Shown here piece after piece: positions 30,323 through 34,494 of a stretch of DNA of 34,494 nucleotides (within the stretch, counting starts at the first letter, position 1; the number at the start of each line of letters is the position of its first letter). The notes under the pieces were generated by a model. That model did no database searches. It worked only from the letters and a program-made list of their open reading frames with translations, and was not told the origin of the DNA. Made by a program: the position numbers and the translations under genes. This DNA is from Actinomycetes bacterium (GTDB taxonomy: Bacteria > Actinomycetota > Acidimicrobiia > Acidimicrobiales > RAAP-2). The stretch spans positions 1 to 34,494 of the forward strand of contig JAJYQJ010000153.1 in assembly GCA_021794655.1 (NCBI GenBank), written 5' to 3'.

Positions 30323-31753
30323 GTGGTAACGACGACGACCGCAGAGACCCACTATGACGTCGTCGTCGTCGGTGGTGGACCCGGTGGGTACGCGACCGCG
30401 CTCTACGCTTCCTCCGCCGGGCTCTCCGTCGCGCTCGTCGAACGCGACAAGGTCGGTGGGACGTGTCTCCATCGAGGATGCATTCCGGCCAAGGAGTTCT
30501 TGGAGACCGCGTCGGTCTTTCGCAGCGTCTCACGGGCTCGGGACTACGGAGTGAACTCGTCTGTGCAAGAGGTTGACTTCTCTGTCAGCCAGGCGCGCAA
30601 GAACACGGTAGTCGAACAGCTCTTTAAGGGGCTCTCTGGACTACTCGTCGGGCGTAAAGTGACCGTCATAGGCGGGATCGCAACGCTCTATCCCGGAAAA
30701 CTCGTAAAGGTAACGCGTGGTGCGGACGCAGGAGTTGAGATCGTCGGGCGTAACATCGTCTTGGCTCCGGGTTCCATTCCACGCACGCTCCCCGGTCTCG
30801 ACGTGGACGGACGAATTGTGCTCACCTCTGACGAATTCTTGGACATGAACTCTGTGCCAGAGTCCGCCGCGGTCGTCGGGGGCGGCGCTATCGGTTGTGA
30901 GTTTGCCTCTCTCCTCTGCGATCTCGGAACGAACGTGACGATCCTCGAAGCGCTCCCGGCTCTACTAAGCGGGTGTGACCGTGACGTGACAGCCGTCGTC
31001 ACTCGATCGTTCAAGAAACGCGGGATGGAGATAGCGACGAGCGTGGAGGTGAGGGGCCACCAGCCCATCGAAGGCGGGAGAGGAACCGTCGTTCACTTCG
31101 GGGACGGTGAGAGCCGAGAGGTAGACAAGATTGTCGTCTCCGTCGGCAGACGCCCGCGGACCGAAGGCCTCCTTGCGAGCGACACCGGCGTCACGGTCGA
31201 CGAGCGAGGATTTGTTATCACCGACGCATACCAGCAGACCCACGCCGAGGGAGTTTGGGCCGTCGGAGACGTCGTCGCGGGTACGCCTCAGCTCGCCCAC
31301 GTGGGATTCGCCGAAGCTATCGTAGCGGTCAAAGGGATCCTCGGTGAGCCGGTCCTCCCGGTCGATTATGAGAAAATTCCATGGGCGATCTACTGCCATC
31401 CAGAAGTCGCCTTTGCCGGTCTGACCGAGGACGCGGCGACAGAGAGAGGCTACGACATCGTCACGATGAAGGATCCGTTCGGCGGCAACAGCAGAGCCCG
31501 GATCATAGGGGAGACCGAAGGGATGGTAAAAGTCGTCGCCGAACGCGCTCCCGACGGATCGACTGGGAGGATACTCGGCGTTCACATGGTGGGGCCATGG
31601 GTAACCGAACAACTCGGCGCAGGCTACCTGGCTCTCAACTGGGAGGCGACGCCGGCCGACGTCGCCCAGTTCATCCAACCCCACCCGACGTTGTCAGAAA
31701 CATTCGGAGAAACGATGCTCGCACTCACAGGAAGGGGACTTCACATTGGCTGA
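30323..31753 (+). CDS. lpdA: dihydrolipoyl dehydrogenase (E3)
   Basis: Predicted 476-aa flavoprotein reoxidising the dihydrolipoyl group of E2 with NAD+. FAD motif VVVVGGGPGGYATALYASSAG, redox disulfide C48/C53 in GGTCLHRGCIPAKEFLETA (the HRGCIPAKE form typical of actinobacterial Lpd), NAD motif VVGGGAIGCEFASLLCDLG, WAVGDVVAGTPQLAHVGFAEA and the C-terminal His-Glu region IQPHPTLSETFGE. The only usable start is GTG 30323, directly against the AGGAG (30318-30322), since a TAG lies two codons upstream; this zero spacing is unusual. Its end overlaps the E2 gene by 8 nt. Confidence 0.95.
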   Translation: MVTTTTAETHYDVVVVGGGPGGYATALYASSAGLSVALVERDKVGGTCLHRGCIPAKEFLETASVFRSVSRARDYGVNSSVQEVDFSVSQARKNTVVEQLFKGLSGLLVGRKVTVIGGIATLYPGKLVKVTRGADAGVEIVGRNIVLAPGSIPRTLPGLDVDGRIVLTSDEFLDMNSVPESAAVVGGGAIGCEFASLLCDLGTNVTILEALPALLSGCDRDVTAVVTRSFKKRGMEIATSVEVRGHQPIEGGRGTVVHFGDGESREVDKIVVSVGRRPRTEGLLASDTGVTVDERGFVITDAYQQTHAEGVWAVGDVVAGTPQLAHVGFAEAIVAVKGILGEPVLPVDYEKIPWAIYCHPEVAFAGLTEDAATERGYDIVTMKDPFGGNSRARIIGETEGMVKVVAERAPDGSTGRILGVHMVGPWVTEQLGAGYLALNWEATPADVAQFIQPHPTLSETFGETMLALTGRGLHIG

Positions 31754-33248
31754 CATAACGATGCCACAGCTCGGAGAGACGGTGACCGAGGGGACCATCA
31801 CCCGGTGGATGAAGTCCGTCGGCGAACAGGTGGCGGTCGACGAACCACTCTTCGAGGTCTCAACCGACAAGGTCGACACAGAGGTCCCCTCGCCCGCTAG
31901 CGGCGTACTGAGTGAGATCCTCGTGCCCGAAGGAGATACCGTCGACGTCGGCGTCCGCTTAGCGGTCATCTCCGAGGCGACCACCGGGGTTGGGGCCCCG
32001 ACCGCCGCCGTCGACCCAACGACTCAACGCTCACCGTCGGCCCAGGTCCCACCACCACCGGCTCCGCCGTTTGTGCCCCCCCCACCGCCACCACCTGTAC
32101 CGCCGCCGCCACCGGCAGCACCACCGACACCGGCCGTCGAGTCACCAACTCCCGTTACCCCCGGCGTCTCGCCGTTTCCACCTCCAGGCCCTGAGGGCGC
32201 GCGGATACTCTCGCCGGTAGTGAGGCGGCTGCTGACCGACAACGGTATCCATCCCGACGAAGTGAACGCGACGGGGCTCGGCGGGAGGATAACCCGCGAG
32301 GACGTGCTAGCGGTCATCGACGCGAGAAAGGTTCGTGAGAGTGGTGGAAACCCCGATCCGTGGGTGAATGCTGTTAACCCGCCGCCACCACCACCACCAC
32401 CACCACCACCACCGGCATCGGCTCCACCGTCGCCCGTTCCTTCGGGGACAGTTGCGCTCAGTAACACCCCGAGCGTGTCAGCGACGCCGTCGGCAGTACC
32501 GCGGGTCGCTCCGGCGATTGAAAGTTGGCCCGCAGCAACCGACAACGTCGTCCCGTTTTCAAACATGCGCAGGCGTACCGCCGAGCACATGGTCCGTTCC
32601 AAAGCGACGTCTCCACACGCGTTCATCGCCAACGAAGTCGACTTTGAGTCGGTCGAACGAGTGAGGAGGGCCTGGGGCGAGCGCTTTCGGGCTGAGGAGG
32701 GGTTCTCTCTTACGTACCTGCCGTTCGTCGCTAGAGCGAGCGTGGAGGCACTGAGGAGCTTCCCGAACCTGAACGCCTCTGTCGGGGAAGACTCCCTGAT
32801 AGTTCACCAAGAGGTAAATTTGGGGATCGCGGTGGACCTTGGGCATGAAGGCCTGATCGTCCCGGTAATCCACCGGGCCGAAGAGGTCACACTTCGAGGT
32901 ATAGCTCGCAGGATTCGGGACCTCGCAAACCGCGCGAGGACTAGGCAGCTCACGGCCGACGACATATCCGGTGGGACGTTTTCGATTACCAACGACGGGC
33001 CGTTCGGCACGTACTTCACCGTGCCGATCATCAACCAGCCTCAAGTTGGGATTCTTGCGACCGACGGGATCAAGAGACGCCCCGTCGTAGTCGAACTCCC
33101 AGACGGCACCGAGTCGATCGGGATACATTCCACCGGACTCCTCGGGATGAGCTGGGATCACCGCGCAGTTGACGGAGCGTACGTCTCGTCGTACTTGGCT
33201 CGGGTCGGCGAATTGATAGCTTCTCGCGACTGGGAAGCCGAGCTCTAG
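31746..33248 (+). CDS. sucB: dihydrolipoamide acyltransferase (E2)
   Basis: Predicted 500-aa core subunit of a 2-oxoacid dehydrogenase complex. Order: one lipoyl domain (residues 1-75) with lysine K42 in EVSTDKVDTEVPSPASG; a proline-rich linker; a peripheral-subunit-binding domain from about 157 (ILSPVVRRLLTDNGIHPDEVNATGLGGRITREDVLAVI); a second linker with 12 consecutive prolines (about 212-223); and the catalytic domain ending in MSWDHRAVDGAYVSSYLARV, with His472 and Asp476. The start is TTG 31746, with GGAAGGGG (31732-31739) at 6 nt. Actinobacterial E2s of this type are often named sucB yet serve pyruvate dehydrogenase too, so the substrate (pyruvate or 2-oxoglutarate) is uncertain. Confidence 0.93.
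   Translation: MADITMPQLGETVTEGTITRWMKSVGEQVAVDEPLFEVSTDKVDTEVPSPASGVLSEILVPEGDTVDVGVRLAVISEATTGVGAPTAAVDPTTQRSPSAQVPPPPAPPFVPPPPPPPVPPPPPAAPPTPAVESPTPVTPGVSPFPPPGPEGARILSPVVRRLLTDNGIHPDEVNATGLGGRITREDVLAVIDARKVRESGGNPDPWVNAVNPPPPPPPPPPPPASAPPSPVPSGTVALSNTPSVSATPSAVPRVAPAIESWPAATDNVVPFSNMRRRTAEHMVRSKATSPHAFIANEVDFESVERVRRAWGERFRAEEGFSLTYLPFVARASVEALRSFPNLNASVGEDSLIVHQEVNLGIAVDLGHEGLIVPVIHRAEEVTLRGIARRIRDLANRARTRQLTADDISGGTFSITNDGPFGTYFTVPIINQPQVGILATDGIKRRPVVVELPDGTESIGIHSTGLLGMSWDHRAVDGAYVSSYLARVGELIASRDWEAEL
32385..32411 (+). repeat. CCA trinucleotide repeat coding a polyproline linker
   Basis: Nine consecutive CCA codons, flanked by CCG codons, give twelve prolines in a row between the subunit-binding and catalytic domains of E2. 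Slippage would change linker length in frame. Confidence 0.9.
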
Positions 33249-33260
33249 GCCACAGCGGCG

Positions 33261-34494
33261 ATGCTCCGTGTGCGCAGGTTGGGAAGGGTAGCTTACCAAG
33301 ACGCAGTATCGTTCCAGAGGGCTCTTGCGACGCACGGTAACGACGAGTACTTGCTGTTGTTGGAGCACCCCCACGTTTACACGCTCGGGGTACGTGCCGA
33401 CCCAGCTCACGTCCTAGTCGACCCAGAGTCCGTCGGGGCGGACCTCGTAACGACAGACAGGGGAGGCGACGTCACGTATCACGGCCCCGGCCAGGTCGTC
33501 GTTTACCCGGTTGTCTCCTTGGAAGAAGATCCTGGTTCAGGTCCCAGACACGTCCACAACCTCGAGAAGGTAGTTGTGAGGGCTCTTCAACGAATCGGAG
33601 TTCCAGAGACGGTAAGAGGCATCGGGACCCTCCCGGGCTATCCGGGCGTCTGGTTGGGGACCGACTCTGATCGTCCTAGAAAAGTTGCCGCGATCGGCGT
33701 GAAAACTGTTCGATCCGATTCGGGAGTTAAGCGCTCTCTTCACGGAGTAGCGGTAAACGTCGACTGTGACATGAAGATGTTTTCACACATCGTACCCTGT
33801 GGGATCCATGAGTACGAAGTCACCTCACTTGAGGAAGAGGGATTTAAGACCACGTTTCAAGACGTCTTGAACGCTCTCGAGGTAGAGAGCGTTCGACTCT
33901 GGGGAGGAGCGGGGGTTGATCGTGGAGGTGAAAAAAGTGAGCACACGTCCGATCAATCTGTTCCGGGAAGCCCTCCCGGTCCCGGTCCCGGTCCCGGTCC
34001 CGGTCCCGATGCCGCTTGCGCGACGCCCGGGCAACTTTCGGTCCCGGTCGCGATGCGTGGGCGTTTGCGTCGTGCCGGCGTCGACGCGGACTTAGCTAAG
34101 CCGGTCAGTGAGCGCAAACCTGAGTGGCTCCGTGCGCCGCTCAAGATCGGCCCTCAGTACCTGGCTACCGGGCGCACGCTCAACGGGCTCGGCCTCGTCA
34201 CGGTGTGCGAAGAGGCGGGATGCCCCAATATCTACGAGTGTTGGGCTGAAGGGACCGCTACGTTCATGGTGAACGGGGATCGTTGTACGAGGGCGTGTGG
34301 ATTCTGCCAAGTCGACAGCCGCCGCCCCTTGCCGGTAGATCCAAGTGAGCCCGAGAGAATCGCTCGATCCGTCGAGTCGATGAATCTCGCCCACGCGGTG
34401 GTGACGTGCGTGGCCCGTGACGACTTGGCCGACGGAGGCGCAGGTGCGATCGCCGAGAGCATCAACGCGATCAGGAGTTCGAGTCCCGCGACGC
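33261..34494 (+). CDS. lipB-lipA: LipB-LipA fusion: octanoyltransferase joined to lipoyl synthase (3' end cut by the window)
   Basis: From ATG 33261 the frame runs without a stop to the window end (411 codons). Residues 1 to about 213 are LipB, which moves octanoyl from acyl carrier protein to E2: LLLLEHPHVYTLG, TDRGGDVTYHGPGQVVVYPVV, the lysine in KVAAIGVKTV, LHGVAVNVD and the acyl-enzyme cysteine in IVPCGI. Then comes a linker, SPPGPGPGPGPGPD (about 237-250), and from about residue 265 LipA, which inserts sulfur into octanoyl groups: KPEWLRAPLKIGPQYL, the auxiliary [4Fe-4S] ligands CEEAGCPNIYEC and the radical-SAM motif CTRACGFC. I read each codon across the junction and found no stop. A separate LipA start at ATG 34054 cannot be excluded, but it lacks a ribosome site. 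It lies 12 nt after E2, its substrate. Confidence 0.85.
   Translation, partial: MLRVRRLGRVAYQDAVSFQRALATHGNDEYLLLLEHPHVYTLGVRADPAHVLVDPESVGADLVTTDRGGDVTYHGPGQVVVYPVVSLEEDPGSGPRHVHNLEKVVVRALQRIGVPETVRGIGTLPGYPGVWLGTDSDRPRKVAAIGVKTVRSDSGVKRSLHGVAVNVDCDMKMFSHIVPCGIHEYEVTSLEEEGFKTTFQDVLNALEVESVRLWGGAGVDRGGEKSEHTSDQSVPGSPPGPGPGPGPGPDAACATPGQLSVPVAMRGRLRRAGVDADLAKPVSERKPEWLRAPLKIGPQYLATGRTLNGLGLVTVCEEAGCPNIYECWAEGTATFMVNGDRCTRACGFCQVDSRRPLPVDPSEPERIARSVESMNLAHAVVTCVARDDLADGGAGAIAESINAIRSSSPAT
33975..34008 (+). repeat. CCCGGT hexanucleotide repeat in the LipB-LipA linker
   Basis: Five exact CCCGGT units (33975-34004), followed by a sixth that ends CCCGAT, encode alternating Pro-Gly. Six-base units preserve the frame when gained or lost, so linker length could vary between strains. 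Confidence 0.92.

Follow-up and report, generated by a model that had tools for sequence, protein, structure and literature searches.

An open reading frame encoding LipB and LipA

The window, which is the whole 34,494-nt stretch of DNA that was analysed and the entire contig C7 of a metagenome-assembled genome (155 contigs, 95% complete), carries genes for E3, E2 and a lipB-lipA fusion, here called lipBA (Table 1). The lipBA frame was open from the ATG at 33261 through the final base of the window, giving 411 amino acids with an open 3′ end. As the earlier note had claimed, a single frame ran from the LipB motifs through the LipA motifs, and both domains were matched within 33261–34494.

Table 1. 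Genes, domains and repeats at the lipBA locus (positions in the window)
Feature	Position	Strand	Remarks
E3 dihydrolipoyl dehydrogenase	30323..31753	+	TIGR01350 above cut-off; operon shared with lipBA
E2 acyltransferase, one lipoyl domain	31746..33248	+	Nearest NCBIfam model SucB_Actino, below cut-off; 12 bases upstream of lipBA
lipB-lipA fusion gene	33261..34494	+	411 of 563 codons; remainder at C81:131-588, on another contig of this genome
LipB octanoyltransferase domain (PF21948)	33294..33878	+	Complete domain; Lys141 33681-33683, Cys180 33798-33800
Interdomain linker	33897..34103	+	Length (26-128 codons) and sequence variable among relatives
Perfect hexamer repeat TCCCGG x5.8 (as assembled)	33974..34008	+	Encodes Gly-Pro
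LipA N-terminal half	34104..34494	+	CX4CX5C auxiliary-cluster motif (CEEAGCPNIYEC) from 34206; CX3CX2C radical-SAM motif (CTRACGFC) from 34284

LipB moves octanoate from octanoyl-ACP to the lysine of a lipoyl domain via an acyl-enzyme and a Cys/Lys dyad. Residues 12–206 of the window protein matched PF21948 (E-value 2.3e-33), and the protein scored above the cut-offs of the LipB model TIGR00214 (118.9 bits, cut-off 83.55) and of NF010925 (157.6 bits, cut-off 155). HGPGQ (H74, 33480), Lys141 and PCGI with Cys180 were found in one frame, and both residues of the dyad were invariant in 46 fused relatives. The domain thus resembled LipB (TIGR00214; M. tuberculosis LipB, PDB ID: 1w66) over the whole catalytic domain, in the Lys/Cys dyad and in its fold (Foldseek TMt 0.84), but LipA continued in frame where LipB has a stop.

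LipA is a radical SAM enzyme with a sacrificial auxiliary cluster that inserts two sulfurs into the octanoyl group. About the first 130 LipA residues were encoded in the window (TIGR00510 positions 13–142 aligned to residues 282–410), with both cluster-binding motifs in the same frame as LipB. LipA was incomplete because the contig stops at 34494, and the earlier note had proposed extending the sequence past this point. A profile search of the genome located a second lipA match that started at base 4 of contig C81, and the last 130 nt of C7 equalled the first 130 nt of C81 with one mismatch (base 4) and 126 identical bases. When C7 and C81 were joined, the frame continued to a stop at C81:586-588 and LipA was completed, giving a product of 563 aa that ended in ...PLTRSSYHARAAAEAV and contained all LipB and LipA catalytic motifs, with the C-terminal TRSSYHA encoded on C81. 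No further lipA was found in the genome beyond the gene on C7 and C81, and the fusion gene is therefore the sole source of LipA there. The halves on the two contigs, scored separately, reached 158 and 214 bits with TIGR00510 (cut-off 310), and three complete fused relatives reached 339, 361 and 338 bits. The LipA catalytic motifs were invariant in the 46 fused proteins, with the exception of the final Tyr of RSS(Y). The domain shared the cluster-binding motifs, the C-terminal RSSY and the fold of LipA (TIGR00510; M. tuberculosis LipA, PDB ID: 5exk; Foldseek TMt 0.91–0.94), but differed in being the C-terminal domain of a larger chain and in having no conserved start of its own.

Genes upstream of lipBA

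The gene order E3 (lpd), E2 and lipBA was conserved. Of the fused loci, 40 had 4 kb or more of DNA ahead of the gene; E3 was upstream in every one of these 40 and E2 was directly upstream in 32, which agreed with the position beside the E2 gene that had been described from the window. The E2 encoded in the window is a likely substrate of LipB-LipA. The genome also encodes GcvH, which is plausible as a second substrate.

Two details of the E2 gene were also observed. At 33246–33263 the stop codon of E2 (TAG) is in frame with the start of lipBA, 12 bases away, so a single stop codon divides E2 from LipB-LipA. A perfect CCA x9.7 repeat at 32385–32413 encodes polyproline in the interdomain linker of E2, and its unit, as in the lipBA linker, is a multiple of three.

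Distribution and origin of the fusion

LipB and LipA were fused in frame in 121 of 155 loci that had both domains, 116 of them distinct, and the fusion was found in every Acidimicrobiia family examined; the assignment of the fused group to this class was based on the record titles of named loci and on kinship codes for the other genomes. The earlier note had called for a search for single proteins matching both families, and such proteins were found in nearly all relatives. Lipoyl synthase was surveyed in 246 Acidimicrobiia genomes, each at least 90% complete. It was matched in 238 and gave no match in 8, and the TIGR00510 cut-off was exceeded in 232. Among the matches listed, all lipA genes but two, in G473 and G381, lay in frames of 499 aa or more. 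In G473 lipA was cut by the contig end. G381, which also has a fused gene, carried an extra lipB-lipA pair that was not fused, on a contig of 5 kb (C83; L182 and L191), probably due to contamination or horizontal transfer.

No lipA was found in G002, G006 and G019 or in the 8 genomes of the class survey, although these genomes are fairly complete, and lipoyl/biotinyl domains were present where tested. Contigs may be missing from these genomes, or lipA may have been lost with scavenging in its place. Three loci with the labels Bifidobacterium breve or Acidobacteria, namely L066 (CAMBEL010000003.1, labelled Bifidobacterium breve), L078 (QEUQ01000034.1) and L104 (JACZUI010000032.1), carried fused genes typical of Acidimicrobiia and probably belong to MAGs with wrong labels.

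Outside the Acidimicrobiia, lipB and lipA were adjacent yet separate in Dietzia, Rhodococcus, Streptomyces, Nocardioides, Nocardiopsis and others. No fusion was found in the other Actinomycetota that were searched (G260, G094 and 20 loci mostly picked for long frames), where the genes were separate wherever both were present. These pairs have the same gene order and homologous domains and are likely ancestral, but they differ from lipBA in having an intervening stop codon and a separate lipA start. In a tree built from both domains, with the linker left out, the fused state appeared as one change, on a branch with an SH-aLRT of 94. A single origin of the fusion in the ancestor of Acidimicrobiia is favoured but not proven, because the tree was midpoint-rooted and the sampling of separate pairs was limited. 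In other phyla, similar fusions may have arisen independently.

Predicted structure and function

The AlphaFold model of the fused protein from the cultured member Acidiferrimicrobium (L064, 577 aa, 46 sequences) had a pLDDT of 89 and a pTM of 0.90, with low confidence only at residues 229–257 (pLDDT <50) and in the C-terminal tail (570–577). The protein from a marine member (L076), 46% identical to L064, gave a pLDDT of 89.9 and a pTM of 0.91. From the pTM definition, a value of about 0.5 was estimated for domains of this size if they were oriented freely; both models therefore imply a confident domain arrangement, and they suggest, as an indirect indication, that the LipB and LipA domains pack together. 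Among the solved chains found by sequence, none spanned both LipB and LipA.

We consider it highly probable that lipBA encodes a class-wide ancestral octanoyltransferase/lipoyl synthase, bifunctional on one chain and fused once from an adjacent pair. Because the chemistry of LipB and LipA is known and all catalytic residues are intact, the fusion protein very probably catalyses the two successive reactions of de novo lipoylation. The N-terminal LipB domain would use its Cys/Lys dyad to transfer octanoate from octanoyl-ACP to the lipoyl-domain lysine of E2 or GcvH, and the C-terminal radical-SAM domain would then put two sulfurs into that octanoyl group. The fusion would have arisen when an adjacent lipB-lipA pair in the ancestor of Acidimicrobiia lost the lipB stop and the lipA start, leaving one full-length product with both activities. 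The proposal of a single polypeptide with two functions, already made from the window, gained support from the frame, the motifs and the class-wide fusion, as far as sequence can speak to function.

LipB and LipA carry out successive reactions at one lysine of one protein domain, and the fusion would be of benefit by bringing these steps together. With both domains on one chain the stoichiometry is fixed at 1:1, and octanoylated domains may possibly be handed from one site to the other. The chances are about even that the fusion merely fixes stoichiometry and co-expression, with the intermediate diffusing freely between the sites. The variable, low-complexity linker fits such an arrangement, as does the fact that the unfused pair was already adjacent, but the high pTM suggests a defined packing and an operon alone would yield similar co-expression. 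It is possible, if rather doubtful, that the fusion also channels: the class-wide ancestral enzyme would have a fixed domain packing, and the octanoylated lipoyl domain would be passed on by the LipB site to the radical-SAM site without leaving the enzyme. Physical hand-off of this kind is plausible from the models, whose pTM values in two deep branches were far above the estimate for free orientation, and it is consistent with successive steps on one tethered substrate and with the E2 gene adjoining lipBA. The wide range of linker lengths argues against it.

The linker and an internal start for LipA

The final ~25 codons of the linker correspond to the position of the N-terminus of stand-alone LipA. 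The Gly-Pro linker noted earlier is present in the window, but the Gly-Pro run is local to the linker of this genome. In the 116 distinct fused loci, the linkers contained no stop among 7,590 in-frame codons, compared to 149 and 223 stops in the shifted frames and ~196 expected by composition. The fused loci are related and not independent, so a formal probability for this comparison would be overstated, although the trend itself is unambiguous. An interruption of the frame at the junction, by a stop or a frameshift, had been named as evidence against the fusion; the open linkers instead favour a real one.

A continuous frame could also be accompanied by separate synthesis of LipA from an internal start, such as the ATG at 34053 (given in the earlier note as 34054). 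This ATG is in frame and close to the expected LipA N-terminus, and some in-frame ATG was present in the linkers of half of the relatives. Of the separate lipA genes, however, 33 of 34 had a start codon at codons −25 to −19 relative to the LipA anchor; these starts peaked at −21/−22 and were often preceded by a Shine-Dalgarno-like motif. In the fused genes any start codon fell in this interval in only 37 of 116, at scattered positions with none prominent, and no strong Shine-Dalgarno-like motif was found upstream of ATG 34053. Since the start positions are not conserved in fused genes, an internal LipA start is unlikely as a general feature, and the upstream frame has been kept open across the class. 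Separate synthesis of LipA is therefore very improbable, and its production from the internal ATG alone, which the earlier note had raised as an objection to the fusion, found no support. A minor internal start may exist in single species, and the flexible linker, which has a pLDDT <50 at 229–257 in the L064 model, may be cut by proteolysis.

Joining of two genes by an assembly or sequencing error within the repeat was rejected as extremely unlikely: the junction does have a perfect hexamer repeat with a contig end close by, but the same fusion was present in many independent assemblies (the 116 distinct loci include the Acidiferrimicrobium isolate and closed genomes), and the length of the repeat unit is divisible by three, so that slippage by whole 6-nt units preserves the frame. 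The gene in the window is thus real, and it represents an ancestral trait shared across the class, not a peculiarity of a single genome.

Relation to known fusions

The closest known analogue is the LplA-LipA fusion, bifunctional lipoate--protein ligase/lipoyl synthase (NCBIfam NF053790). Both fusions have an acyl-attaching enzyme N-terminal to LipA, but the partner in NF053790 is the ATP-dependent ligase LplA, whereas here it is the ACP-dependent LipB. Membership in NF053790 was rejected, as only the LipA half matched, with 145 bits for the truncated protein of the window and 332–386 bits for complete relatives against a cut-off of 800. No other fusion model was found. What is new is the class-wide arrangement of two known enzymes on a single chain. 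The finding is less surprising given how often consecutive enzymes are fused in biology. Automatic annotation in UniProt/InterPro may already mark such entries as multifunctional fusion proteins, and the architecture may therefore sit there unremarked.

The earlier note had known of no characterised enzyme of this form, and in the parts of the open full-text literature that were searched, neither such an enzyme nor a description of a LipB-LipA fusion was found. No LipB-LipA fusion was found in the consulted portions of a 2023 survey of the evolution of lipoate assembly (PMC10332631). An archaeal survey (PMC3904984) likewise showed none and uses 'LipB-LipA' as the name of a pathway.

The separate enzymes do not reveal how the octanoylated intermediate meets LipA. 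Hand-off could be tested directly on a natural class-wide fusion, which might also yield structures that combine LipB, LipA and a lipoyl domain. If packing and hand-off are both true, LipB-LipA would be a natural one-enzyme lipoylation machine. The gene also marks Acidimicrobiia cleanly at the molecular level and, judging from its predicted activities, could serve as a ready-made one-gene tool for lipoylation.

A second ORF with a biotin/lipoate-ligase fold (282 aa) was observed in locus L116 (G000:C33, 5795–6640, + strand), upstream of mraZ/dcw genes. It gave weak LplA-type matches, far below the cut-offs, and possibly encodes a divergent lipoate ligase or octanoyltransferase.
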